A DNA stretch of 64,000 nucleotides from Natronosporangium hydrolyticum. GTDB taxonomy: Bacteria; Actinomycetota; Actinomycetes; Mycobacteriales; Micromonosporaceae. The translations under genes were made by a program, and so were the position numbers. A model generated the notes under the pieces. It did no database searches. It saw nothing but the letters and a program-made list of their open reading frames with translations, and had not been told where the DNA came from. The first letter of the stretch is position 1, and the number at the start of each line of letters is the position of its first letter. The DNA is taken from contig NZ_CP070499.1 of NCBI RefSeq assembly GCF_016925615.1, positions 2,046,001 to 2,110,000 of the forward strand, read 5' to 3'. Shown piece by piece: positions 1 through 58,166 of the stretch.

Positions 1-262
1 GCAGTACCTCGGAGAGGGCCAGCCAGTGATCCTGGTGGCGGTGAGTGGTCACGACCGTGTCGAGGCCGCCGTCGCCGACCAGGCTCAACAGCTGGTCGGC
101 GTCGTTGGCCGCGTCGACTAGTAGTTGCTGGCCGGTTTGTCGGCAGCGCAGCAGGTAGGCGTTGTTGTCCATCGGGCCGACCGAGAGCTTGCTGATGGTC
201 AGGTCGGGCAGCTCGCGCACGGCCGCCGGACCGCCGGGGGTTACCGCTCCGCTGTAGTCCAT
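1..262 (-). CDS. MBL-fold metallo-hydrolase, N-terminal part (cut by window edge)
   Basis: Only the first 87 codons lie in the window. The ATG is the reverse complement of the CAT at 260-262 and the frame stays open to base 1. The protein reads through a beta-rich start (DLTISKLSVGPMDNNAYLLR) to the metal-binding motif THRHQDHW, the HxHxDH signature of the metallo-beta-lactamase fold. Glyoxalase II-like or general MBL hydrolases have this opening layout, with two metal ions bound by this motif and by later His/Asp residues outside the window. The substrate cannot be told from this part. It is divergent from the GNAT gene at 353. Confidence 0.85.
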   Translation of the reverse strand, partial: MDYSGAVTPGGPAAVRELPDLTISKLSVGPMDNNAYLLRCRQTGQQLLVDAANDADQLLSLVGDGGLDTVVTTHRHQDHWLALSEVL

Positions 263-352
263 GCGGCCGACCCTAGCCGCCCCACCCCGGCCGGAGCGAG
301 CAGCCGATAGGCGTAGCAGCGACCAGCCAGGAGGGTCGGTGGGGTTGAATTT

Positions 353-943
353 GTGGCGGTACCGTTCTCCGACGACGATGGGTGGATGGACTACGAGGTG
401 CGGCGGGTGACACCCGCCGACTGGCTGGCGTTTCGAGAGCTGCGGCTGGAGGCGTTGCAGGACTCACCCCTCGCCTTCACCGAGCAGTACGCCGAGGCGA
501 GGATGCGCTCGGATGCGCAGTGGCGGCAGCGGGTCACGTCGGCGGCGAGTGGCGGCGAGGGGTGCCTGCTGGTGGCTGAGCGGGACGGTCGGCTGGTGGC
601 GACCGTCGGCGGATTCGTGGAGCAGGAGATCACCGAGCAGATTTCGGTGATGGTGGTCGGGGTGTATGCGAGCCCTGGGCACCGGGGCTCCGGGGTCGCC
701 GAACCGCTCTTGACGGGCGTGGTCGACTGGGCGACCGCCGAAGCGGGCGCGGAGCGGATTCGGCTGTTCGTGTTGGCGGAGAACGAACGGGCGCAAGCCT
801 TCTATCGACGGTGCGGGTTCGTCGCCACCGGTGGCACCATGCGTTACCCGCCCGACCCGCGCTATCTGGAGTTGGAGATGGCGTACCGCGCGAGCGGCTC
901 GCCGTCAGCGCCATCCCCACTGCTGCCGCCAGCGACCGGATGA
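353..943 (+). CDS. GNAT-family N-acetyltransferase
   Basis: Encodes 196 residues when read from the GTG at 353; an in-frame ATG (Met12, just before DYEVRRV) is a fair alternative start. The order is that of a GNAT fold: an N-terminal strand VRRVTPADW, a helix with FRELRLEAL, a central strand ISVMVVGVYASPGHRGSG that holds the acetyl-CoA pyrophosphate loop (here HRGSG in place of the usual R/QxxGxG/A), and the late motif NERAQAFYRRCGF typical of small-molecule or protein acetyltransferases. The segment SPLAFTEQYAEA resembles GNATs often annotated as acting on antibiotics or ribosomal proteins, but the acceptor is unknown. Monocistronic; the next gene starts 64 bases on. Confidence 0.88.
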   Translation: MAVPFSDDDGWMDYEVRRVTPADWLAFRELRLEALQDSPLAFTEQYAEARMRSDAQWRQRVTSAASGGEGCLLVAERDGRLVATVGGFVEQEITEQISVMVVGVYASPGHRGSGVAEPLLTGVVDWATAEAGAERIRLFVLAENERAQAFYRRCGFVATGGTMRYPPDPRYLELEMAYRASGSPSAPSPLLPPATG

Positions 944-1007
944 CCCTGGCTTCTATCGAAAGACATCGTAACCTAGCAGAGTTCGGCCTCGGCCTTATCC
1001 TGGTGCG

Positions 1008-1718
1008 ATGACGGAGATTAAGGACAGCGAAGCCCCGATGTACGACGCGTTCGCCGCGGGCTTTCTGGAGCATGCCCGGGATGGTGCCTGTAACGCCCAT
1101 TACGATCGGCCGGCGGTGCTTGCGGCGCTCGGTCCGGTGGCCGGCCTGACGGTGTTGGATTTGGGCTGCGGTCCCGGTCTCTACGCCGCGGAGCTACTGG
1201 CGCGCGGTGCCGCCCGGGTGGTGGGGGTGGACGTCAGCCCCGAGATGGTTCGGCTGGCTCGGGCGGAGGTGGCTACCGACGCCGCGACCTTCCACTGCCA
1301 GGACCTGCAGTCGCCGCTGTCCTGGGCGGCTGACGGCGAGTTCGACGCGGCGGTGATGCCGCTAGTGATCCACCATCTCGACGACCGGGTGGCGGCGCTG
1401 CGGGAGGCGGCCCGGGCGCTGCGGCCCGGCGGCCGGTTGGTGGTCTCCACGGCTCACCCGGTCCACGACTGGCTCCGGCAGGGTGGCAGCTACTTCGCGG
1501 TGCGCCGGATCGAGGAGGAGTGGAACAGCAGCTGGCAGGTCGCGTACTGGCAGCAGCCGCTCTCGGCGACCTGCGCCGAGTTCGCCGCCGCCGGGTTCCT
1601 GATCGAAGGGATCCAGGAGCCGGCGCCGGCGGCGGCGCTGCGGGGGCGCTACCCGGAGCTCGCCGAGGAGCTGGCCAACCGGCCCGTCTTCGTGGTCTTC
1701 GCGTTACGCAAGGCCTGA
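1008..1718 (+). CDS. class I SAM-dependent methyltransferase
   Basis: A 236-residue Rossmann-fold methyltransferase. The SAM-binding glycine motif VLDLGCGPG lies near residue 48, followed by the acidic end of strand 2 (VVGVDVSPEMV) and the later motif FDAAVMPLVIHHLDD, which fits the Methyltransf_11/25 group. The C-terminal part (SWQVAYWQQPLSATCAEF) is a substrate cap that resembles small-molecule methyltransferases of unknown target. A TATCCT hexamer ends 6 bases before the ATG at 1008, so the transcript is probably leaderless. No partner gene identifies the substrate. Confidence 0.9.
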   Translation: MTEIKDSEAPMYDAFAAGFLEHARDGACNAHYDRPAVLAALGPVAGLTVLDLGCGPGLYAAELLARGAARVVGVDVSPEMVRLARAEVATDAATFHCQDLQSPLSWAADGEFDAAVMPLVIHHLDDRVAALREAARALRPGGRLVVSTAHPVHDWLRQGGSYFAVRRIEEEWNSSWQVAYWQQPLSATCAEFAAAGFLIEGIQEPAPAAALRGRYPELAEELANRPVFVVFALRKA

Positions 1719-1792
1719 CCCGAGGTCCGCCGCCGCGTGGCCGCGGGGGAGGATCACCATGGCCCCGCCCACTACAAAGAGGAGCGACCACC

Positions 1793-2569
1793 ATGGCTGG
1801 CGAGAAGGTGACCCTGACCCACGGCGACCACCCGGGCGTTCGCATCCTGGCCCTCACCGACCCGGACCGGCGTAACGCCATCGGCCCGCAGCTGCGCGAC
1901 GAGCTAGCCGCCGCGGTCGCCGCGGTCGCCGCCGACGGTGAGGCGCGAGCGCTGGTGGTCACCGGGGCCGGTCGGGCCTTCTGCGCCGGGGCCGACCTGC
2001 CCGCCGTCTTCGGCCAGCCGGATCGGCCGGTCGCCGAGATCCGGCGCGACCTCCAGGCGATCTACCGGTCCTTTCTGGTGGTGGCCGAATTGACGATCCC
2101 GACCATCGCCGCGGTGCAAGGGCCCGCGGTCGGTGCCGGGCTGAACCTGGCGATGTGCTGCGATCTGCGGATCGCCGGGCCGCAGGCGACCTTCGCGGCG
2201 ACGTTCACGCGGTTGGGGCTGCACCCCGGCGGTGGCTGCACCCACTTCCTAGTCCGGGCGCTGGGCCCACAGCGGGCGCTGGCGATGCTGCTCGACGGCG
2301 GCACGTTGACCGCGGAGGAGGCGGTGCAGCGGGGGCTGGCTTTGTCGGTGGCGGCGGACCCGGTGGCGACGGCGACCGCGGCGGCGGCCCAGTATGCGGC
2401 GCTCGACCCGGAGCTGGTTCGAGACATCAAGCGCTCGGTGCAGCTGGCCGAGACGGCGGGGCTCGGCCCGACGCTGGAGTTCGAGTCGTGGGCGCAGGCC
2501 AGCACCGCCACCGGCGACCAGATCCGCGCCGCGGTCGCCAAACTCACCACCCCTCCCGGTCGATCATGA
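1793..2569 (+). CDS. enoyl-CoA hydratase/isomerase family protein
   Basis: Reads as a 258-residue crotonase-fold protein from the ATG at 1793, which has a strong ribosome site (AAAGAGGAG) 8 bases upstream. The frame is open further upstream, but that stretch overlaps the methyltransferase and looks random. Crotonase marks are DPDRRNAIGPQL (substrate-CoA loop), AFCAGADLP (first oxyanion-hole loop) and the second loop VQGPAVGAGLNLAMCCDLRIA. The hydratase Glu pair is not clearly complete: the position after GLHPGGGCTHFLVR has no Glu in the usual place, so isomerase or other crotonase chemistry on an acyl-CoA is possible. The stop codon TGA lies inside the outer end of a palindromic repeat (2562-2616). 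Confidence 0.88.
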   Translation: MAGEKVTLTHGDHPGVRILALTDPDRRNAIGPQLRDELAAAVAAVAADGEARALVVTGAGRAFCAGADLPAVFGQPDRPVAEIRRDLQAIYRSFLVVAELTIPTIAAVQGPAVGAGLNLAMCCDLRIAGPQATFAATFTRLGLHPGGGCTHFLVRALGPQRALAMLLDGGTLTAEEAVQRGLALSVAADPVATATAAAAQYAALDPELVRDIKRSVQLAETAGLGPTLEFESWAQASTATGDQIRAAVAKLTTPPGRS

Positions 2570-2616
2570 GCGTGTTGACAGACACGCTCGGTGTGTCTGT
2601 CAACACGCTCATGATC
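2562..2616. repeat. 55-bp palindrome, family 1 (copy a)
   Basis: Perfect 24-base inverted repeat around a 7-base loop (GCTCGGT). The arms start with GATCATGAGC and end with GCTCATGATC. The left arm contains AGACAC, matched by GTGTCT on the right. It begins inside the last codons of the enoyl-CoA hydratase and ends about 150 bases before rsgA. There is no T-run after the stem. Related palindromes lie at 7717, 27969/29145 (split), 45634 (half), 52594 and 58058. Confidence 0.9.
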
Positions 2617-2697
2617 GGCGGCGGTAGGCCGATATTCGGTTTCTTCTGAGCGGTCTCCAGGCTTACTGTCTATCCAGACGCGCGTCACCGGAGCTCG

Positions 2698-2752
2698 GAA
2701 AGGGGGTGGTCACGATGCCGGAACGATGGCTCCACACCACCCTCCACCTTTC
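2698..2752 (+). promoter_or_regulatory. leader hairpin upstream of rsgA
   Basis: GAAAGGGGGTGGT (2698-2710) pairs with ACCACCC (2736-2742) and then, after a 4-base bulge TCCA, with CCTTTC (2747-2752). That gives 13 base pairs around a 25-base loop. It ends 16 bases before the rsgA ATG, between the stem and a GAGG ribosome site. It could be a 5' leader structure affecting rsgA translation, or an attenuator. The role is an inference. Confidence 0.45.
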
Positions 2753-2768
2753 TTGATCGAGGTTTCCC

Positions 2769-3803
2769 ATGACGTACGATCTGACGTCCCTGGGCTGGGA
2801 CGCGACCTTTACTGACGAGTACGCCGCGCGGGTGTCGGCCGACTCGGACCACTACCCGGGGCGGGTGCTCCGAGCCGACCGCGGCGTCTGCACTGTCCTG
2901 ACCGCGTCCGGCATCGTCCGTGCCAGCGTGGCCGGGGCGGTACTGTCGGCCGCTGGCGGCGACCCGACCGTCCTACCTGGCGCCGGCGACTGGGTGGTGG
3001 TGCGGGAGTGGCCCGACGAGCGGATCACCGCCGAGGCGGTCCTGCCGCGCCGGACCTCGCTGATCCGGCGGACGGCCGGCAAGGACGCGAGCGGTCAGCT
3101 GCTCGCCGCGAACCTGGACACCGTCGCGGTGGTGGAGGCGATCGACCCCTCGCCCGACCTGGCCCGGGTGGAGCGGCTGCTGGCGCTGGCGTGGGAGTCG
3201 GGCGCTGAGCCGGTGGTGGTGTTGACCAAGGCCGACCTGGCGGCCGATGCTCCGACCGTCGCCGACCAGGTGGCCGACGCTACCGCCGGGGTGCCGGTCC
3301 TGCCGGTGAGCGCGGAGCGCGGCGACGGGTTGCCCGCGCTGCGCCCGTACCTCGGAGTGGGGCGCACATTAGGGCTGGTGGGACCCTCTGGCTGCGGCAA
3401 GTCGTCGTTGGTGAACGCGCTAGCGGGGGCGGCGGTGATGGGTACCCAATCGGTGCGCCGGGTGGACGGCAAAGGCCGGCACACCACCACGTACCGGGAG
3501 TTGGTGCCGCTGCCCGGCGGCGGCGCGGTGCTGGACACCCCTGGCGTACGGGCGGTCGGGCTGCTCGACGGTTCCGGCGGCCTAGACCGCGCGTTCGCGG
3601 AGGTGGTGGCCTTGACCGAGCAGTGCCGCTTCGGCGACTGCGGCCATGCCAGCGAGCCGGGCTGCGCGGTTCGGGCGGCGCTGGCGTCGGGGGAGTTGTC
3701 GCCGCGGCGGTGGGAGAGTTGGCTGCGGCTGCACCGGGAGGTGGCCTACGAGTCGGGCCGCCGCCGGGCCCGCAGCCGGGTCCGCTCATCCGGCCGCCGC
3801 TGA
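2769..3803 (+). CDS. rsgA: ribosome small-subunit-dependent GTPase A
   Basis: A 344-residue circularly permuted GTPase (RsgA/YjeQ) that helps late maturation of the 30S ribosomal subunit. An N-terminal OB-fold (about residues 30-105) is followed by the permuted G motifs: G4 as VVVLTKADL, G5-like VLPVSAERGDG, the P-loop GPSGCGKSSLVNAL (about residues 204-217), then G3 as DTPGVRAVG. The C-terminal zinc finger is present as CRFGDCGHASEPGCAV (Cys-Cys-His-Cys). The ATG at 2769 follows GAGG at a good distance. It is followed by a strong hairpin and then uvrA on the same strand. Confidence 0.96.
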   Translation: MTYDLTSLGWDATFTDEYAARVSADSDHYPGRVLRADRGVCTVLTASGIVRASVAGAVLSAAGGDPTVLPGAGDWVVVREWPDERITAEAVLPRRTSLIRRTAGKDASGQLLAANLDTVAVVEAIDPSPDLARVERLLALAWESGAEPVVVLTKADLAADAPTVADQVADATAGVPVLPVSAERGDGLPALRPYLGVGRTLGLVGPSGCGKSSLVNALAGAAVMGTQSVRRVDGKGRHTTTYRELVPLPGGGAVLDTPGVRAVGLLDGSGGLDRAFAEVVALTEQCRFGDCGHASEPGCAVRAALASGELSPRRWESWLRLHREVAYESGRRRARSRVRSSGRR

Positions 3804-3827
3804 TTCGGCCGCACTGATTCGGCCGCA
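3800..3827. repeat. 14-bp perfect tandem duplication at the end of rsgA
   Basis: The unit CTGATTCGGCCGCA occurs twice head to tail. The rsgA stop codon TGA lies in the first unit. A related CCGGCCGC precedes it, which suggests slippage. No function is implied. Confidence 0.8.
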
Positions 3828-3836
3828 CCGAGCATT

Positions 3837-3877
3837 GGGTGCCCCTGATCACAGAAAACTGTGTGACAGGGGCGCCC
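3837..3877 (+). terminator. hairpin between rsgA and uvrA
   Basis: GGGTGCCCCTG (3837-3847) pairs with CAGGGGCGCCC (3867-3877) with one G-T wobble. Inside it, CACAG and CTGTG close an AAAA loop. This 41-base structure lies after rsgA and just upstream of the uvrA promoter, and no T-run follows. It probably ends rsgA transcription and insulates the uvrA promoter. Confidence 0.65.
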
Positions 3878-3890
3878 TCCTCGGACCGAG

Positions 3891-3913
3891 TTGTCAGGGT
3901 GCGGGGCTAGAGT
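3891..3913 (+). promoter_or_regulatory. PafBC-type DNA-damage promoter of uvrA
   Basis: TTGTCAGGG, 8 bases, then TAGAGT. This fits the actinobacterial RecA-independent DNA-damage promoter (RecA-NDp), consensus TTGTCRGTG-N8-TANNNT, which is used by the PafB/PafC activator in mycobacteria. The TA of the -10 lies 16 bases after the T of TGTC. The GTG start codon of uvrA begins 7 bases after the -10, so the mRNA would be leaderless. The same layout occurs before uvrC (14224-14246). Confidence 0.75.
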
Positions 3914-3920
3914 GTGCGCC

Positions 3921-6900
3921 GTGGCCGACCGACTCATTGTGCGCGGGGCGCGGGAACACAACCTGCGCGATGTCGACCTTGACCTGCCGAGGAACGCGTT
4001 GATCGTGTTCACCGGGCTCTCCGGGTCGGGTAAGTCCAGCCTTGCGTTCGACACGATCTTCGCGGAGGGGCAGCGACGGTATGTCGAGTCCCTCTCCTCT
4101 TATGCGCGACAGTTCCTCGGTCAGATGGACAAGCCCGACGTCGACTTCATCGAGGGTCTCTCGCCAGCGGTCTCGATCGACCAGAAGTCCACCTCCCGCA
4201 ACCCGCGCTCGACGGTCGGCACGATCACCGAGGTCTACGACTACCTCCGGCTGCTCTACGCCCGGATCGGTGAGCCGCACTGCCCCAACTGCGGCCGGCC
4301 GATCAGCCGGCAGACGCCGCAGCAGATCGTCGACCGGGTGCTGGCGATGACCGAAGGCACCCGGTTCCAGGTGCTGGCGCCGGTGGTGCGGGGCCGCAAG
4401 GGCGAATATGCCGACCTCTTCGCCGAACTCCAGTCGAAGGGCTACGCCCGGGTCCGGGTCGACGGGGTGGTGCATCAGCTGACCGAGCCACCGAAGCTCA
4501 AGAAGCAAGAGAAGCACACCATCGAGGTGGTGGTGGACCGGCTCACGGTGAAGGCGAGCGCCAAGCGCCGGTTGACCGACTCGATCGAGACCGCGCTGCG
4601 CCTGGCGGGCGGTCTGGTGGTGCTCGACTTCGTCGATCTTGACGAGGACGACGAGCAGCGGGAGCGGACCTTCTCGGAGCACCTGGCGTGCGGTTACTGC
4701 GACCTGAGCTTCGAGGCGCTGGAGCCGCGTTCCTTCTCGTTCAACGCGCCGTATGGCGCCTGCCCGGAGTGCACCGGTCTGGGCACCAAGAAAGAGGTCG
4801 ATCCGGAGCTGGTGGTGCCGGACCCGGAGCGCACACTGCGCGAGGGTGCGCTGCAACCATGGGCTGGCGGTCACACCCTCGACTACTTCCTCCGGCTACT
4901 GGAGGCGCTCGGTAAGCAGGAGGGGTTCGACCTCGACACCCCGTGGCGGGCGATCAGCTCCCGGGCGCAGAAGACCATCCTGCATGGCGCCCAGGATCAG
5001 ATCCACGTCCGCTACCGAAACCGCTACGGCCGGACCCGCTCGTATTACACCGGGTTCGAAGGGGTGGTGCAGTGGCTGGAACGCCGGCACGCCGACACCG
5101 ACTCGGAGTGGTCGCGCGACCGGTATGAGGGCTACATGCGGGAGGTCCCGTGCAAGGTGTGCGCGGGGGCCCGGCTCAAGCCCGAGGTGCTGGCGGTCAC
5201 CGTGCACGGCCGTAACATCGCCGAGATGTGCGCGCTCTCGGTCGGGGAGTGCGCCGAGTTGGTCGCCGGCATGACGCTGACCGACCGGGAGCGGCTGATC
5301 GCCGAGCGGGTGCTGAAGGAGATCAACGCCCGGCTGCGGTTCCTGGTCGATGTCGGGCTGGATTACCTGTCGCTGGACCGGGCGGCCGCCACCCTCTCCG
5401 GCGGTGAGGCACAGCGGATCCGGCTCGCCACCCAGATCGGCTCCGGTCTGGTCGGCGTGCTGTATGTGCTGGACGAGCCGTCGATCGGGCTGCATCAGCG
5501 AGACAACCACCGGCTGATCGAGACCCTGGTGCGGCTACGTAACCTCGGCAACACGCTGATCGTGGTGGAGCATGACGAGGACACCATCCGCACCGCCGAC
5601 TGGATCGTCGACATCGGGCCCGGCGCCGGTGAGCACGGCGGTCGGATCGTGCACAGCGGCCCGTACGATCGGCTGCTGACGGCGGAGGAGTCGGTAACCG
5701 GCGCCTATCTGGCCGGTCAGAAGTCGATCCCGGTGCCGACGCAGCGCCGGCCGGTGACGGCGGGTCGGGAGCTGGTGGTGCACGGTGCCCGCGCCAACAA
5801 CCTGCGCAACCTGACCGTCAGCTTCCCCCTCGGGCAGTTGATCGCGATCACCGGGGTGAGCGGTTCCGGCAAGTCGACGCTGGTCAACGACATCCTGTAC
5901 GCGGTGTTGGCGAACCGGATCAACGGCGCCCGGCTGGTGCCGGGGCGGCATACCCGGGTCAGCGGCATCGACCAGGTCGACAAGGTGGTCGGGGTGGACC
6001 AGTCGCCGATCGGGCGGACGCCGCGATCCAACCCCGCCACCTACACCGGCGTCTTCGACCACATCCGGAAGCTGTTCGCCGGCACCACCGAGGCGAAGGT
6101 CCGTGGGTATGGTCCGGGCAGGTTCTCGTTCAACGTCAAGGGCGGGCGGTGCGAGAATTGCGCCGGCGACGGGACGATCAAGATCGAGATGAACTTCTTG
6201 CCCGACGTCTACGTCCCCTGCGAGGTGTGTCAGGGCGCGCGGTATAACCGCGAGACCCTGGAGGTCCACTACAAAGGCCGCACCATCGCCGAGGTGCTGG
6301 ACATGCCGATCGAGGAGGCCGAGCAGTTCTTCTCCGCGATCCCGGCGATCCATCGACACCTGAAGACGCTGGTCGATGTCGGGCTGGGCTATGTCCGGCT
6401 CGGGCAGAGCGCGCCAACGCTGTCGGGGGGCGAGGCGCAGCGGGTGAAGCTCGCCTCCGAGCTGCAGCGCCGCTCCACCGGCCGGACCGTCTATGTGCTC
6501 GACGAGCCCACCACCGGGCTGCACTTCGACGACATCCGCAAGCTGCTGCGGGTGCTGGAGGGGCTGGTCGAGAAGGGCAACACGGTGATCGTCATCGAGC
6601 ATAACCTCGATGTGATCAAGACGGCTGACTGGTTGATCGACCTGGGTCCGGACGGCGGCAGCAAGGGTGGCCGGGTGGTGGCGGTCGGCACCCCGGAGGA
6701 GGTGGCCGAGACGGCGGTGAGCTTCACCGGCCAGTTCCTGCGTCCGGTGCTCGGGCTGCCCGAGGCGGCGGTGATGGCGTCGACCGAGGCGGCGGCCCGG
6801 GCGGCGCAGGCTAACGGCGCGGACGCTGCGGGTGCGACTGGTCGGGCCGGCTCCGCTGCGAAGGCCGCACCGGCCAAGCGGGCTGGGCAGGCCACGAAAG

Positions 6901-7061
6901 TCACGAAGGCTACGAAGGCTACGAAGGTTGGCAAGTCTGCTAAGGCCGCTGCGAAGCCTGTGAACGGCAGCGACTCGGACCAGTCGGCTAAACCAGCTAA
7001 GGCACCCAAAGCGGCCAAATCGGCCAGATCCTCGAGGGCTGCGGCGTCCGGTCGTCAATGA
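3921..7061 (+). CDS. uvrA: excinuclease ABC subunit A
   Basis: UvrA finds bulky DNA lesions and loads UvrB in nucleotide excision repair. The protein is 1046 residues from the GTG at 3921, giving [14 protein letters not shown], the usual N-terminus. Two ABC ATPase modules are present: Walker [10 protein letters not shown] (about 32-40), zinc module CGYC...CPEC (about 257-285), signature [12 protein letters not shown] (about 493), second Walker [10 protein letters not shown] (about 645), second zinc module CENC...CEVC, and second signature [12 protein letters not shown]. The last hundred or so residues form an unusual Ala/Lys-rich tail with ATKATKATK repeats. The start choice is supported by the PafBC-type promoter, whose -10 ends 7 bases upstream. 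Confidence 0.98.
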
Positions 7062-7175
7062 CCGGCCCGGGTTGAGTCAAGATCGGTCGAGGTTGAACCA
7101 GCCTGCCGCCGGACCCGTATGTCCTGGCATGGCTAACCTAGCCAAAGCTCACAAACAGTACAGAGAGGTCTGCCC

Positions 7176-7700
7176 ATGAGTGACGAACGGTTGGCGAGCG
7201 AAGCATCGGGTACGAGCAGCCGGCGTGCGGTGCTGGCGGGAGCCGGCGCATTGGGCGCCACCGCGGTGCTCGCCGCCTGCGGCACTGAGCCCGACGACGA
7301 CCGCGATCCGTTCGAGCCAGCGCCGCCAGCGGACGACCCGGGCGCACCCGAGGGCAGCAACGGGGACACCGAGGAGGACACCGGCGGCAGCGGCGGCGAA
7401 GTGCTCGCGAGCGCCGAAGAGGTCGAGGTCGGCGGTGGGCTGATCGTCGCGGACCAGAACGTGGTGGTCACCCAGCCGAGCGAGGGCGAGTTCCGCTGCT
7501 TCAGCGCTGTCTGCACCCATCAGGGGTGCCTGGTCAGCGACGTTGAGGACGGCACGATCAACTGCAACTGCCACTTCAGCCGCTTCTCGATCGAGGACGG
7601 CTCGGTGGTCGAGGCGGCCGAGGGTGGTGACCCGGCGGGTCAGGACCCGCTACCCGAGGTCGAGATCGAGGTCGACGGGTCGGAGATCCGGCTCGTCTGA
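7176..7700 (+). CDS. Tat-exported Rieske [2Fe-2S] lipoprotein
   Basis: A 174-residue single-domain Rieske protein. The N-terminus SSRRAVLAGAGALGA, followed by VLAAC, combines a twin-arginine signal with a lipobox, so the folded protein is probably exported and anchored by Cys33 or so. An acidic, Ser/Gly-rich linker (PDDDRDPFEPAPPADDPG and on) precedes the Rieske fold. The cluster motifs are CTHQGC and CNCHFSRFS, giving the two Cys and two His ligands. These small Rieske proteins pass electrons to unknown partners; it is too short and isolated to be the QcrA subunit of the bc complex. A perfect palindrome follows 16 bases after the stop. Confidence 0.93.
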   Translation: MSDERLASEASGTSSRRAVLAGAGALGATAVLAACGTEPDDDRDPFEPAPPADDPGAPEGSNGDTEEDTGGSGGEVLASAEEVEVGGGLIVADQNVVVTQPSEGEFRCFSAVCTHQGCLVSDVEDGTINCNCHFSRFSIEDGSVVEAAEGGDPAGQDPLPEVEIEVDGSEIRLV

Positions 7701-7716
7701 CCCCGCCCTAACCGCC

Positions 7717-7772
7717 GATCATGAGCTGGTTGCCCCGACACGCTGGCGTGTCGGGGCAACCAGCTCATGATC
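7717..7772. repeat. 56-bp palindrome, family 1 (copy b, perfect 27-bp stem)
   Basis: Arms of 27 bases with a 2-base loop (TG) and no mismatch. The ends are GATCATGAGC and GCTCATGATC and the core is GACACGC/GCGTGTC. The middle (TGGTTGCCCC/GGGGCAACCA) differs from copy a, but both sides have changed together, so pairing is kept. It lies between two co-oriented genes and has no T-run. Confidence 0.92.
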
Positions 7773-7857
7773 GGTCCGTCTCAGAGTGCGGTGGGAGCGG
7801 TCCCACCGAGCGGGCAGAGGCTAGCGTAAGCGTCGCCGTCGATGCCAGGATCTGCCT

Positions 7858-8463
7858 ATGCAGACGGGTACGAATATCGACCAGCGTCGCCGGCGCGGAC
7901 TCCAGCTGGCGGCGCTGCTGGTCGTGGTGGCGGCCGTCGTGGTCGCGGTCGGGCTACGCCTGGTGGGGCCAGCGGAGGACCAACCGGCCGCGCCGGTCGC
8001 GGGCGGCGACGACCGACCCCTGCCTGAGCAGCTCGCGGACGAGGTGGTGACCCTGTTGGAGGGGGCCAGCCTCGCCGAGCATGCCGCTCATGGCCACCAC
8101 TTCGACGAAGATGCACACGGCATCGTGTGCGCCGCCGACACCCTCGGCTTCGAACCCACCACCGCCAGCACGGTCGACGAGGTGGAGACCATCTACGCCC
8201 ACCACATGTGCGCCGAGTACGGCCCGGGCCTGTACTGGCCCGATGCGTTGCGCGCTTCCGGGCCGTTGGTGGTGGAGCTGGACACCGCACCGGCCTCGAT
8301 CATGCTGCCGGAGCAGGCGTTGGTGGGGGAGGAAGGGGTCACCCACGCCGACCGGGTGCGTTCGATCCTCCCGGAGGAGTACCACGAGCAGGTGATCGCC
8401 GCCGACGGGTTCGACCCGGACGTCGCCGAGGTCCTCCGCGACCGCTTCGAGTCAATCAGCTGA
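7858..8463 (+). CDS. membrane-anchored extracytoplasmic protein of unknown function
   Basis: A 201-residue protein with a short basic N-terminus (DQRRRRG), one strong membrane segment (about residues 15-38, LAALLVVVAAVVVAVG), then an outside domain of about 160 residues. There is no lipobox, so it is probably N-terminally anchored. Notable stretches are AEHAAHGHHFDEDAHGIVCAAD and IYAHHMCAEYGPGLYW, rich in His and with two Cys that could form a disulfide or bind metal. I do not recognise a family. It is flanked upstream by a palindrome and downstream by 177 bases with no gene that I can support. Confidence 0.75.
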   Translation: MQTGTNIDQRRRRGLQLAALLVVVAAVVVAVGLRLVGPAEDQPAAPVAGGDDRPLPEQLADEVVTLLEGASLAEHAAHGHHFDEDAHGIVCAADTLGFEPTTASTVDEVETIYAHHMCAEYGPGLYWPDALRASGPLVVELDTAPASIMLPEQALVGEEGVTHADRVRSILPEEYHEQVIAADGFDPDVAEVLRDRFESIS

Positions 8464-8640
8464 GCGACGATTCAACCGCTTGAGCACATGGCCGGCGTGA
8501 TCTTGGGCGGCATCCACACAGTCGGAGTTGTGGATCCAGCTATGGTCGCGGTCATCGGCGTCCACTTCGGCTTGCGGGCGCTGCTACCCTAATTGGTCGG
8601 GTAGCGAGCTGCCGATGATCACGATTGCTGAGGGGGGAAC

Positions 8641-8994
8641 TTGCCACCGGAGCACCTTGAAGCCGACGTCGACGTCGTTCACTCGGCCGCCAAAGAGACT
8701 GACGCGATGTCGGGGAGCTGGCAGCAGTGGGGAACCCACGTCCAGCTCTGCTTCGCCGACACGTCGAGAGCGGTGCGCAATAGCCGCCTTGGTGTGGCGG
8801 TCACCAATTACACCGCCGAGGTCAATCCGATTGCCCAGCGGATGGCTGGCCGGGTAGCCACCCTTGGCGGTGCTACGGCCGACGCCGCGATCACGGTCAA
8901 CAGTGCGGACCAGGATGCCGAGGCGGTGCTGGTCGCTCAACATGGGGCCGCCGCCGGGCAGAGCACTGTGCTCAATCGCCCGGTGAACTTCTAG
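8641..8994 (+). CDS. WXG100/EspC-like small helical protein
   Basis: A 117-residue protein from a TTG at 8641, preceded by a strong ribosome site (GAGGGGGGAAC). It has the size and all-helical, Ala-rich character of ESAT-6/EspC-type type VII secretion partners: a helix from about residue 5 (EHLEADVDVVHSAAKETDAM), then a turn region GSWQQWG in the place of the WXG motif, then a second long helix ending VNSADQDAEAVLVAQHG. The exact WXG spacing is not canonical. It ends 8 bases before the large DUF6571-like gene, so the two are almost surely co-transcribed and probably act as secretion partner and cargo. No ESX machinery genes are in the window. Confidence 0.65.
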   Translation: MPPEHLEADVDVVHSAAKETDAMSGSWQQWGTHVQLCFADTSRAVRNSRLGVAVTNYTAEVNPIAQRMAGRVATLGGATADAAITVNSADQDAEAVLVAQHGAAAGQSTVLNRPVNF

Positions 8995-9002
8995 GACTTG
9001 TG

Positions 9003-16231: not shown

Positions 16232-16240
16232 GCTTCGCTC

Positions 16241-16726
16241 ATGATCAAAGTACGGCGGGCGGTGCCGGCGGACGCCCCGGAGCTGGTCCGGCTGCGCACC
16301 ATCATGCTTTCGGAGATGGCCGGCGAGCCGGTGCCGCCGGGGGAGTGGGCGGCACCCGCCGAGCAGATGTTGCGGGAGCGGTTGGCGGAGCCGGCCGGGA
16401 CGGCCCGGCTCGCCGCGTTCGTGGTCGATCCGCCCGACGGGGCCCCGGGGCTGGCCTCCTGCGCGATCGGGACGATCGAGCGGCGGCTGGGCGGTCCGGA
16501 GAATCCGACCGGCGAGTTCGGCTATCTGTTCAACGTCGCCACCGACCCGGCGTACCGGCGGCGTGGCTTCTCCCGCGCCGGTACGGAGGCGGTGCTGGCC
16601 TGGTTCCGGGAGCGCGGGGTGGTCCGGGCGGATCTGAAGGCGACCCCGATCGGGGAGCCGCTCTACCGGTCGCTCGGCTTCGTCGACTCGTCGGCGCCAT
16701 CCCTGAAGCTGGTGCTGCCCGACTGA
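16241..16726 (+). CDS. GNAT-family N-acetyltransferase
   Basis: A 161-residue GNAT protein starting 9 bases after uvrC, so it may share its transcript and damage control. It opens with IKVRRAVPADAPELVRLR, has the acetyl-CoA loop in FNVATDPAYRRRGFSRAGTE (RRRGFS, a normal Q/RxxGxG/A variant) and the closing LYRSLGFVDSS typical of the family. It resembles uncharacterised actinobacterial GNATs. The acceptor is unknown. A strong palindrome begins 14 bases after its stop. Confidence 0.9.
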   Translation: MIKVRRAVPADAPELVRLRTIMLSEMAGEPVPPGEWAAPAEQMLRERLAEPAGTARLAAFVVDPPDGAPGLASCAIGTIERRLGGPENPTGEFGYLFNVATDPAYRRRGFSRAGTEAVLAWFRERGVVRADLKATPIGEPLYRSLGFVDSSAPSLKLVLPD

Positions 16727-16740
16727 CCGGCTCCTGCCAG

Positions 16741-16791
16741 ATCTTGTGCGGTTCTTGTCGTAGTCGCGACGCGACAAGAACCGCACAAGAT
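16741..16791. repeat. 51-bp palindrome, family 2 (intact copy)
   Basis: ATCTTGTGCGGTTCTTGTCG and its exact complement CGACAAGAACCGCACAAGAT flank an 11-base centre (TAGTCGCGACG), which itself contains TCGCGA. It lies between the convergent GNAT and DUF559 genes, 8 bases from the DUF559 stop. A second copy upstream of the DUF559 start is split by the IS481 element. Confidence 0.9.
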
Positions 16792-26071: not shown

Positions 26072-26116
26072 ACATGCGGGCGGGCCGGCGCGAATCGCGC
26101 CGGCCCGCCCGCATGT
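26072..26116. terminator. bidirectional terminator-like hairpin, perfect 21-bp stem
   Basis: ACATGCGGGCGGGCCGGCGC plus G pairs without mismatch around the loop AAT. It lies 25 bases after the DUF6458 stop and 7 bases before the stop of the convergent csbD-like gene. No T-run follows on either side, as is common for actinobacterial terminators. Confidence 0.85.
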
Positions 26117-27968: not shown

Positions 27969-27995
27969 GATCATGAGCGGGTAAGCAGACACGCC
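27969..27995. repeat. left arm of a family-1 palindrome split by an IS30 element
   Basis: GATCATGAGCGGGTAAGCAG followed by ACACGCC matches the left arms of the other family-1 copies, closest to the one at 52594 (GATCATGAGCCTGTAAGCAG). Its partner arm lies beyond the insertion at 29145-29171. Confidence 0.88.
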
Positions 27996-28000
27996 CCGCT

Positions 28001-29140
28001 TCGGTTCAACCGGTCCGTGCAAGTGGTTCGTTGACCACGGCATGGACCGGTTGAACGGAGTGGGTGCATGGCTCGGGCGCATGTGTTGACGTTGGGGCAC
28101 CGGCAGGTGATCGAGAACCTATGGCGGCAGGGAGCGACCTTCGAGCAGATCGCGGCAGCGCTCGGGGTGGGATTCTCGTCGGTATGGCGGGAAATCGCAC
28201 GGTCGCATTCCTCGCGGCATGGAACGAAAAACCCGCTCGGGCCGGTGCGGGGCGGGCTGTACCGGTGGGGCTACACCGCCCAGTGGGCGCAGCGACACGC
28301 CGAGAAGCGGCGTGCGCGGCCTAAACCCCGCCGACTGGACCACAAACCGTTGCGTGAGCAAGTCGCTACCTGGCTGCGGCAACGTTGGTCGCCTCAGCAG
28401 ATCACCCACTCCTTGCGGCGTACCTTCACAGGTATGCCCCAGATGCAGGTCAGCCACGAGACGATCTACAAGTCCATCTATCTGCAGGCGCGGGGAAGTC
28501 TGCGGGAGCTGGTCAACGACGCGCTACGTACCGGCCGTAAGCAGCGGCGTTCGCAGTCCCGCGCCGCGCAGGCCGCCCGGGGGGCGATCTGTGGTAAGCC
28601 GTGGGTGACCGAGCAGGTGCATATCTCGGCGCGTCCGGCCGAGGCCAACGACCGGGCAGTGCCCGGGCATTGGGAAGGTGACCTGGTCCTGGGCCGTAAC
28701 AACGCCTCGGCGATGGTGACTCTAGTGGAGCGCACCACCCGGTTTGTGATGCTCGGCGCATTGCCTGTTGACCGCTCCAGCCCGGAGGTATTGACGGTAG
28801 TGCGCGGATTGATGGCCCGCCTGCCGCAGCATCTAGTGCGTTCGCTGACCTGGGACCAGGGAAGCGAACTGGCTGGTCATGCCTCCTTCACCCTGGCCAC
28901 AGGCTGCCCGGTGTTCCTGTGTGATCCGCACTCGCCCTGGCAGCGGGGCACCAACGAAAACACCAACAGGCTGCTGCGTCAGTACTACCCGAGAGGCAAA
29001 ACCAACTTCTCTGTCGTCAGCCAGGCCGAGATGGACACGGTCGCGGTGTCGCTGAACGGCCGTCCGCGGGAGACCCTGGGATGGGATACTCCCGCGGAGG
29101 CCTTGAATCAACTACTCCTTGCACCGACCGCTTGAAACCA
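28001..29140. mobile_element. IS30-family insertion sequence, about 1140 bp
   Basis: Imperfect terminal inverted repeats of 23 bases: TCGGTTCAACCGGTCCGTGC then AAG at 28001-28023, and the complement of TGGTTTCAAGCGGTCGGTGC then AAG at 29118-29140, 19 of 23 identical. One intact transposase gene fills the element. It lies in the loop of a family-1 palindrome; CCCCG occurs on both sides (27993-27997 and 29141-29145) and may be the target duplication, although two extra bases separate it from the left repeat. Confidence 0.88.
28068..29135 (+). CDS. IS30-family transposase
   Basis: A 355-residue DDE transposase with an N-terminal helix-turn-helix typical of IS30 (LTLGHRQVIENLWRQGATFE, IAAALGVGFSSVWREIAR). 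The catalytic triad is in PGHWEGDLVLGR (first Asp), SLTWDQGSELAGH (second Asp) and RGTNENTNRLLRQYYPRG (Glu), the last being a hallmark of the family. The ATG at 28068 follows GGAG at 9 bases. The frame is complete, so the enzyme may be functional. The stop overlaps the right terminal repeat. Confidence 0.96.
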   Translation: MARAHVLTLGHRQVIENLWRQGATFEQIAAALGVGFSSVWREIARSHSSRHGTKNPLGPVRGGLYRWGYTAQWAQRHAEKRRARPKPRRLDHKPLREQVATWLRQRWSPQQITHSLRRTFTGMPQMQVSHETIYKSIYLQARGSLRELVNDALRTGRKQRRSQSRAAQAARGAICGKPWVTEQVHISARPAEANDRAVPGHWEGDLVLGRNNASAMVTLVERTTRFVMLGALPVDRSSPEVLTVVRGLMARLPQHLVRSLTWDQGSELAGHASFTLATGCPVFLCDPHSPWQRGTNENTNRLLRQYYPRGKTNFSVVSQAEMDTVAVSLNGRPRETLGWDTPAEALNQLLLAPTA

Positions 29141-29144
29141 CCCC

Positions 29145-29171
29145 GGCGAGTCGGTCAACACGCTCATGATC
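29145..29171. repeat. right arm of the split family-1 palindrome
   Basis: GGCGAGTCGGTCAACACGCT followed by CATGATC. It complements the left arm at 27969-27995 at the ends and core, with mismatches in the middle. Removing the IS would restore a palindrome between the convergent CBS and panB genes. Confidence 0.88.
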
Positions 29172-43155: not shown

Positions 43156-43216
43156 CCCGGCAGCGTACTTGCGGGTAGGCCGCCGTGTCGGCCCGGCGCT
43201 GATCAGAGGCGGCAGA

Positions 43217-43257
43217 CGGCGAGGGCCGCCCGGAGAATCTCCGGGCGGCCCTCGCCG
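43217..43257 (-). terminator. glnA terminator hairpin, perfect 20-bp stem
   Basis: CGGCGAGGGCCGCCCGGAGA and its exact complement are separated by a single A (the tip will open by a few pairs). It lies 16 bases past the glnA stop on the minus strand and before the acylase gene. There is no T-run. Confidence 0.85.
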
Positions 43258-43272
43258 TGGTGGTCTTCTGGG

Positions 43273-45633: not shown

Positions 45634-45658
45634 GATCATGAGCCTGTCAGCCGACCCG
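45634..45658. repeat. half of a family-1 palindrome
   Basis: GATCATGAGCCTGTCAGCCG followed by ACCCG is a left arm like those at 52594 and 7717. No matching right arm follows; the sequence continues into GTTCGTGCCG and the end of the glycosyltransferase gene. It marks the junction between DUF4191 and the polysaccharide island. Confidence 0.7.
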
Positions 45659-45681
45659 TTCGTGCCGTGGCCGCGATGGCG

Positions 45682-52495: not shown

Positions 52496-52593
52496 CGCGT
52501 GCTCCGGCCGATTAGTGGGCGGCCTGCTCCATCTCCCCACGCTACTCCGGCGCTGGTTCTGCGCACCAGAAATGAGCTCGTTTGACCAGCGCC

Positions 52594-52648
52594 GATCATG
52601 AGCCTGTAAGCAGACACGCCGAGCGTGTCCGCTCAAAGGCTCATGATC
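52594..52648. repeat. 55-bp palindrome, family 1 (downstream of lipA)
   Basis: Arms of 26 bases around CGA. The ends are GATCATGAGC and GCTCATGATC and the core is GACACGC/GCGTGTC, with three mismatches in the middle (TGTAAGCA against CGCTCAAA). It lies 6 bases past the lipA stop and upstream of the kinase gene on the same strand. Confidence 0.9.
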
Positions 52649-52654
52649 GGCTGC

Positions 52655-57385: not shown

Positions 57386-58166
57386 CCGGCGAGGCCGGCT
57401 GTTGGCGGCGCCGCGCATAGCGGCCGGCGACCAACCCTCCGGCGGCGAGCGTGCCGGCCGCGGCGAGCGATACGAAGAATCCGGGGGAGCCCGGTGAGAG
57501 GGCGGCGGCGCCGACGTTCGCATACACCACGGTGCTGGGCACGGTCCCGATCAAGGTGCCCAGGCCGAACACCCGGGCGGGTACGCCGGTGAGGCCGTAC
57601 CCGTAGCTGATCAGCCCGAACGGCGCCAGCGGAAGCACCCGGGCGACCACCACTCCGAGCAGCCCTTGGCGGACGATCCACTGGTCCGCCCGGGTGGTGC
57701 GGGAGTAGGTGAGGATCAGGTCCCGGCCGAGCCAGCGGCCGACGGCGTAGGCGGCCATCGCGCCGGTCCACGCGCCGGTCAGCACCACGACCGCGCCCAG
57801 CCAGGGGCCGAACAGCACCCCGGCGATCGCCGCCATCACCGGACGGGGGACCACCGCGAGGGCCAGCACCGCGGTCGTCAACACCGCCAGGATCGGCGCC
57901 CAGCCGCCGGCCTGGTTCACCAGCGTCGACCAGGTCTCCGGCGACGGGATCCCGGCCCACAGGACGGCCGCCCCGAGCGCCGCGACGCCGACGGCGAGCA
58001 CGCCGAACCGGACCAGCGGCCCGCCCCCGCGCCGAATCCCGCGCCAGACCCCGCGCCGATCATGAGCTAACTGGCCGACACGCCCGGCGTGTCCGTCAAC
58101 AAGCTCATGATCGGCCGATCGGGCGGTCGCGGGGCGGTCATGATCGGCCGCTTGGTCGGGGTTCAT
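57372..58166 (-). CDS. TVP38/TMEM64-family membrane protein
   Basis: A protein of about 264 residues if started at the ATG at 58166, which overlaps the stop of the upstream epimerase (ATGA). In that case the palindrome at 58058-58112 is inside the coding region (as DHELVDGHAGRVGQLAHD). The next in-frame start is a GTG at 58001, at the edge of the first helix and without ribosome site. Membrane helices are FGVLAVGVAALGAAVLWAG, ILAVLTTAVLALAVVPRPVM and LGAVVVLTGAWTGAMAAYAV; the family motif is PRPVMAAIAGVLFGPWLGAV with ARVLPLAPFGLISYGYGLTG (the SNARE-assoc/DedA-like core). Role in membrane homeostasis unknown. Its 3' end overlaps the convergent gene by 14 bases. Confidence 0.82.
   Translation of the reverse strand: MNPDQAADHDRPATARSADHELVDGHAGRVGQLAHDRRGVWRGIRRGGGPLVRFGVLAVGVAALGAAVLWAGIPSPETWSTLVNQAGGWAPILAVLTTAVLALAVVPRPVMAAIAGVLFGPWLGAVVVLTGAWTGAMAAYAVGRWLGRDLILTYSRTTRADQWIVRQGLLGVVVARVLPLAPFGLISYGYGLTGVPARVFGLGTLIGTVPSTVVYANVGAAALSPGSPGFFVSLAAAGTLAAGGLVAGRYARRRQQPASPVTTR
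58058..58112. repeat. 55-bp palindrome, family 1 (at the 5' end of the TVP38 gene)
   Basis: GATCATGAGC...GACACGC, centre CCG, GCGTGTC...GCTCATGATC. The middle of the arms (TAACTGGCC against CGTCAACAA) has several mismatches, so only the ends and core pair well. The other copies lie between genes; here the reading frame may run through it. Confidence 0.85.

Follow-up and report, generated by a model that had tools for sequence, protein, structure and literature searches.

A dispersed family of DNA palindromes with conserved ends, co-varying arms, and genome-private stems in Natronosporangium hydrolyticum and related actinomycetes

Palindrome copies and an insertion sequence in the window

The window analyzed here, that is, the whole 64-kb stretch of DNA (C1:2046001-2110000), belongs to the one-contig genome of Natronosporangium hydrolyticum, a 5.7-Mb Micromonosporaceae chromosome of 5,699,854 bases. 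The sequence GATCATGAGC occurs in it 12 times, where shuffles predict 0.18 matches, and these 12 matches comprise four complete copies of a long palindrome, a further copy that an insertion has split, a lone arm, and one match unrelated to the family. The unrelated match (16237-16246) overlaps an ORF start, lacks a partner, and was rejected as a copy. The features are as follows (R1 is a covariance model described in the next section):

2559..2619, no strand, complete copy; GATC ends 2562-2616; R1 81.9 bits
7714..7775, no strand, complete copy; 29-bp perfect arms; R1 69.0 bits
27969..27996, no strand, left arm of the core-interrupted copy; inner border approximate
27997..29144, + strand, IS30-family insertion; borders approximate
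29145..29171, no strand, right arm of the interrupted copy
45634..45660, no strand, left arm alone; right arm absent downstream
52591..52651, no strand, complete copy; arms 90% complementary; 77.3 bits
58055..58115, no strand, complete copy; arms 83% complementary

From GATC to GATC, the complete copies span 2562-2616, 7717-7772, 52594-52648, and 58058-58112. The TGA stop codon of the upstream + strand gene falls inside the left end of the copy at 2559..2619, the copy at 7714..7775 begins 16 bp past a + strand stop codon, and to the right of 58055..58115 lies an extra arm with one mismatch, GGTCATGATC. The first-pass annotation had claimed perfect pairing over 24 and 27 bases at 2562 and 7717; the pairing is indeed perfect, but it extends over 25 and 29 bp. 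The split copy at 27969/29145 and the half copy at 45634, both noticed in the first pass, are real, the former being split by the insertion in its core and the latter consisting of a left arm alone. The window also contains three further perfect inverted repeats, 20-22 bp in length (16741-16791, 26072-26116, and 43216-43258), which lack GATCATG ends.

The insertion that splits the copy at 27969 is approximately 1.15 kb long. Its transposase ORF (28068-29135) matches rve above the cut-off and HTH_38 slightly below it, a combination that we take to be the make-up of IS30-family transposases. The genome contains three full copies of this insertion sequence (IS) and one partial relative with 49% identity, and none was found at E<=1e-30 in the congeners G001 or G002. 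All three full copies lie at the same point in a palindrome core (window 27997-29144; L243 and L244); therefore, the palindrome is a specific target of the IS, whose own ends differ from those of the palindrome. As an observation in its own right, this IS30-family element is a candidate site-specific IS.

Anatomy and genomic placement of the family

The family is not confined to the few copies first noticed. The pattern GATCATGAGC-N24..44-GCTCATGATC occurs at 47 places genome-wide (reversed control, 0), and the R1 covariance model, built from these 47 exact-end copies, gave 129 strand matches, which we counted as at least 65 places, 61 of them at E < 1e-8 (150 first-look candidates were scored in the genome search, so that the counts are lower bounds). 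Three IS-split copies are additional to these places. The R1 subfamily thus has a genome-wide density of about one copy per 89 kb; the figure of one per 11 kb given in the first pass holds locally. Our working set consisted of 64 of the 65 places (the 47 exact-end copies, 15 fetched, and 2 in loci already in hand), the weakest (E 0.24) being excluded. Three of these 64 copies are weak (26-30 bits), and at least two of the three are similar to the second subfamily described below. Further, weaker relatives turned up in a search of 0.68 Mb of loci from the same genome. Four half-elements fetched outside the window sit within coding-looking sequence.

The full unit, GCC-GATCATGAGC ... GCTCATGATC-GGC, is 61 bases long and thus larger than the unit first proposed. 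Its ends (GCCGATCATGAGC) and its core (GACACGC/GCGTGTC) are constrained, and the middle of the stem is variable. Among the 47 copies of length 55, the ends, the middle, and the core deviate from the consensus by 1.4%, 34.9%, and 7.8%, respectively; the corresponding values are 5.4%, 39.8%, and 10.1% in 12 copies not chosen by exact ends. Because these end-unselected copies also deviate little there, the constraint on the ends is not merely an artifact of selection. Flank positions 1 and 3 are near-constant in palindrome copies, and, at the second base outward, C is found in 101 of 122 arms and T in 15. The length between GATC ends is 55 in 48 of 62 copies, 56 in 10, and 54 in 4.

A second subfamily has similar outer ends and another stem, by eye near GGGGTTNGGGACACGAAACCC / TACCTAGGTCCATGATC (L052:8474-8534, L057:5773-5833, L071:6624-6685, and L074:8482-8542), with relatives at L044:45-105 and L157:8262-8322. 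In the relative at L044:45, both arms form small palindromes of their own that have the same ends.

With genes called by our own codon-usage gene caller (not Prodigal), 27 of the 64 copies lie between convergent genes, 28 between tandem genes, and 5 between divergent genes, and 4 were called intragenic. The claim that the copies are always found at gene ends therefore nearly holds. The same loci, which were selected for containing copies, have 14,297 convergent, 45,502 tandem, and 22,088 divergent intergenic bases, and against this background the 27 convergent copies among 60 intergenic ones compare with 9.8-10.5 expected by bases (chi-square p <= 3e-8). Gene 3' ends lie at a median of 20 bp from the copies (82 ends, 74 of them within 60 bp), and gene starts at a median of 84 bp (38 starts). 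In 18 cases, the gene 3' end overlaps the element, 13 times on the TGA of GATCATGA and 3 times on a TAG just past it. Two of the four intragenic calls are firm: one copy is read in frame within the linker of a phosphonopyruvate-decarboxylase-like gene, and the other makes up the C-terminal tail of nuoL, the best alignment with a solved NuoL stopping at residue 632 of 663. Two groEL-like paralogues, named by eye (L043, upstream of 5001; L048, 8567-10207), each have a copy 19-27 bp after the stop codon.

The flanks of the copies are skewed irrespective of gene orientation, being C-rich on the left (about 49% C and 23-28% G) and G-rich on the right, compared with 34-39% C and 31-34% G downstream of other stop codons, which served as the control. 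The flanks in G055, a genome from another family of the order, are similarly skewed in a comparison made without such a control (56% C left and 53% G right). Additional exact 10-base ends occur within 150 bp of 8 of 47 copies versus 5 of 338 intergenic control points, and, with one mismatch, near 10 of 47 copies versus 19 of 338 control points. Each of the ten exact extra ends is oriented like the end closest to it, 10-36 bp outward, and most extra ends, by eye, repeat the adjacent flank as well (e.g., L044 and L067), which would suggest slippage of the copying process at the hairpin base. Palindromic extension into the flanking sequence is weak (61 copies; block 4-10, p=0.014; 6-bp extensions, 21% vs 8%), and the idea that copy-specific flank extension marks insertion into existing hairpins was dropped on account of this weak signal.

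Co-variation of the arms, gain of copies, and distribution

In the 47-copy alignment, 89.8% of cells pair, compared with 84.9 ± 0.6 after shuffling, and 72 cells are changed on both sides, compared with 38.7 ± 4.7 (0 of 500 shuffles as high), which bears out the first-pass picture of a scattered family whose ends and core are constrained and whose middle co-varies. Double changes affected 10 pairs, which is not above the shuffled value of 9.6, and pairing falls to 22-39% when the partner is shifted by 1-3 columns. Because kinship among copies can inflate shuffle tests, we also compared the arms directly. In 48 copies, the two arms within an element match at 5.54 of 8 middle positions versus 4.27 ± 0.18 between elements. 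Full agreement was reached in just 10 of the 48 copies, and the first three bases are common to both arms in 22 of 48; many copies are therefore imperfect.

If the fold were selected in a transcript, G-U pairs would be tolerated and A-C pairs would not. Among 22 gene-oriented tandem copies of length 55, G-U combinations number 29 and A-C combinations 22 (p=0.20), and among 20 convergent copies the numbers are 20 and 23. On these small numbers, RNA-level selection is not favored by the pairing data, and neither is the RNA-level terminator or stabilizer suggested in the first pass. A fixed A/C asymmetry between the arms was also considered in the N. hydrolyticum genome and rejected (AC 20 vs 22 expected).

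R1 matches were obtained in 14 of 61 genomes, including that of N. hydrolyticum, at E<=0.001. The copies shown from other genomes mostly retain G-[TC]-[TC]-GATCATG as the outer end and either CGACACGC or GCGTGTCG as the core, while the stem sequence differs genome by genome and is private to each. G055 is probably the public MAG BP_184, in which the palindrome recurs at an identical contig position. In G055, the stem is mostly G[GA]..TTGCAACA; all 21 copies are 61 long and, by eye, approximately 18 of the 21 have one arm one base longer than the other. The core is directly repeated (e.g., CGACACGC..GGCGACACGC), not inverted, in the four copies seen in the congeners G001 and G002, and it is clear in just one arm in the seven copies seen in G047, G018, and G021, so that it acts as a sequence motif beyond its role in the stem. 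Across genomes, the length between GATC ends ranges from 47 to 66 bp; it is mostly 55 in N. hydrolyticum and in the listed copies of G055 and G018, even where the arms are unequal by one base.

Copies in related genomes retain arm complementarity. In alignment A2, which comprises 33 copies that we picked ourselves from ten genomes, pairing reaches 92.7% versus 73.3 ± 1.0 after shuffling, with 150 double-change cells versus 55.9 ± 6.6; for the 21 copies of G055 alone, there are 27 double-change cells versus 9.3 ± 2.1. A second model, R2, built from this alignment and applied to 18 scored candidates per genome, matched 43 of 296 genomes of the class and 27 of 106 genera at E<=1e-4. The 19 R2 loci returned include 12 with GATCATG ends and 7 with GATCTTG, GATCAAG, or GATCACG variants or less, so that some matches are related chiefly by fold. 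Exact GATCATG-N-CATGATC occurrences were counted in ten genomes of our choosing, and long forms (51-74 bases), some of whose listed matches appear to be coding, number 126 in N. hydrolyticum, 32 and 38 in its congeners, 171 in G028, 79 in G055, 33 in G012, 29 in G018, 12 in G005, and 0 in G003 and G006, with no more than 1 in the reversed control. Short forms number 29 in N. hydrolyticum, 210 in G028, and at most 6 in the other eight genomes; among those listed for G028, nearly all are the 24-mer GATCATGACCTGGAGGTCATGATC or its complement (on many contigs; L106 and L111).

No matches to one consensus 61-mer were found in plasmid and phage records, and no Rfam family scored above its gathering threshold in 10 loci (87,701 bases) with copies from several genomes. 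The exact ends occur in 35 stretches of GTDB contigs, a search from which records close to the N. hydrolyticum genome may be missing, and none has a GACACGC core by eye; these were rejected as copies, some being chance matches in coding sequence and others different palindromes that share the 10-bp ends. Such palindromes with identical ends and other cores were seen as three copies in each of two organisms, 50 bp long in Phytoactinopolyspora limicola (L021, L031, and L035) and 56 bp long in Skermania sp. ID1734 (L006, L023, and L039), respectively.

Gain of copies was traced at one gene and at intergenic sites. In the decarboxylase orthologues of G001, G002, G006, and G016, the element is absent and the linker is 12-15 residues shorter. 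Since the copy covers about 18 codons, a portion of the linker has been lost or replaced, with exact borders that cannot be set, and the copy is no clean insertion into the orthologues' sequence. The comparison of orthologous intergenic regions proposed in the first pass used 0.68 Mb of the sister species G002, in which 11 elements had a good flank match and 8 could be judged. Seven of these eight sites are empty in the sister species, with both flanking genes found for L046, L059, and L074 and one flanking gene found for L044_5001 (the gene being only 63% identical), L045, L062, and L072; L043, L048_10227, and L063 were left out of the count. At L040, an element is also present at that site in G001 with the stem of G001, which fits in-place turnover as well as two insertions. 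By eye, some element-free sites in the sister species carry another hairpin-like sequence.

Origin of the palindromes and relation to known repeats

Stems that are common within a genome and changed between genomes under conserved ends call for a copying process, with which the in-gene copy and the empty sites agree; the copying mechanism raised in the first pass is supported on these three grounds. The palindromes are probably a family of small non-autonomous mobile DNA elements, REP-like in behavior, that would be moved by an enzyme acting in trans. The unit combines near-invariant ends and a conserved core with a stem of unrestricted sequence, provided that the arms pair. A non-RAYT enzyme could recognize the ends and the core on a folded single strand and copy or move the unit, so that solely lineages with pairing arms would continue to spread. 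Location on the stop-codon side may result from a target preference (C-rich left and G-rich right flanks) together with the loss of harmful insertions. Settled copies provide the stop codon in some cases and may serve as bidirectional terminators. The strong constraint on the ends could instead point to a role for the host.

Alternatively, the palindromes may be bidirectional 3' hairpins, either U-less intrinsic terminators or mRNA 3' stabilizers, kept by selection on the RNA fold, which we regard as unlikely. U-run terminators are rare in actinobacteria, and the U-less (I-shaped) intrinsic terminators of this group are GC-rich hairpins after genes that lack the U tract. The short distance to stop codons, the convergent enrichment, the long stable stem, and the hairpin-like sequences at some element-free sister sites would all suit such hairpins. 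However, G-U combinations show no clear excess over A-C, one copy sits in frame within a gene, and terminators require no common stem sequence, yet the stems are common within and private between genomes; I-shaped terminators are defined by fold and place, whereas the present family is defined by a common sequence copied around the genome. A scan of window positions 1-9000 for a hairpin followed by a U run found no terminator centered on the copies at 2562 or 7717, the two scanned, and one terminator site (2614-2633) overlaps an element end. It is quite unlikely that the palindromes are DNA-binding sites at which a chromosomal or regulatory protein recognizes inverted pairs of GATCATG, although the ends are the most constrained part, the length stays mostly at 55 despite one-base differences between arms, G028 has 210 short forms, nearly all of those listed being one 24-bp palindrome, and the IS30-family element uses the core as its site in three of three cases. 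Such a site alone does not account for the compensatory middles, the in-gene copy, or the length range of 47 to 66 bp between genomes.

Classical REPs moved by a RAYT (Y1 tyrosine) transposase are largely refuted as an explanation. The family has in common with REPs a large number of palindromes scattered between genes, stems that vary in complementary fashion, the presence of two or more subfamilies in a genome, and the one-base bulge in G055, and the congener G002 has one Y1 gene. However, PF01797 (Y1) gave no matches in the N. hydrolyticum genome (G000), G055, G028, G018, G012, or G001, and it was found in 10 of 61 genomes, comprising 3 of the 14 with the element versus 7 of the 47 without. 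Among the close element pairs inspected by eye, the intervening genes were ordinary and no REPtron-like transposase was recognized. Nor is there a constant tag: a GTAG tag is not constant where GATCATG...CATGATC is invariant in 33 of 33 A2 rows (outer tips mostly G[TC][TC]), and a CGTC end is not constant among 122 arms. The first-pass label REP/BIME-like thus fits the placement of the copies and not REP/BIME proper. It is very improbable that the palindromes are MITEs left over from an insertion sequence whose terminal inverted repeats match theirs; the small size and the terminal inverted repeats suit it, but there is no clear target duplication (a weak 2-bp identity outside GCC..GGC in 23 of 62 copies vs 13.4 shuffled, with nothing longer prominent), and the sole IS observed at these sites carries different ends and has the palindromes as its target.

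Among the nearest known counterparts of the palindromes are the REP repeats. Like GTAG REP, BIME, and REPIN elements, they are dispersed short palindromes located mainly downstream of genes and sometimes within them (PMC3733652, PMC2817692, PMC3116915), and they share complementary stem changes, subfamilies, bulges, and patchy copy number. PMC3733652 gives stems mostly of 6-9 for GTAG REPs and names such repeats in Proteobacteria, Cyanobacteria, Chloroflexi, and PVC; unlike these, the present family lacks the GTAG tag, has a stem of about 27 bp and Actinomycetes as hosts, and occurs in an N. hydrolyticum genome without a Y1 transposase. The same paper describes CGTC-tagged REPs as palindromic and without a dedicated transposase, which is similar to the family studied here, and names five phyla, Actinomycetota not among them; our palindromes differ in having no constant CGTC end, a much longer stem, and a host phylum of Actinomycetota (PMC3733652). 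ISs with high selectivity for REPs are described for Pseudomonas, Sinorhizobium, and Neisseria in PMC1525189, and the IS reported here is likewise highly selective for a dispersed palindrome, in this case being IS30-family and actinobacterial. No earlier description of the family was found among the papers listed in the open-access literature searched, a scope outside which most subscription journals lie.

More tentatively, the family might represent a widespread actinobacterial mobile hairpin DNA, in which a non-RAYT trans enzyme would read GATCATG-type ends and the CGGCGTGTC core on a folded strand, the stem serving as each genome's own "address." The spread of REPs is attributed to RAYTs, and an abundant, end-conserved family in genomes where no Y1 transposase was detected points to another route of spreading. 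The family is also a genome-private repeat marker and a testable case for how actinobacterial gene 3' ends are built.
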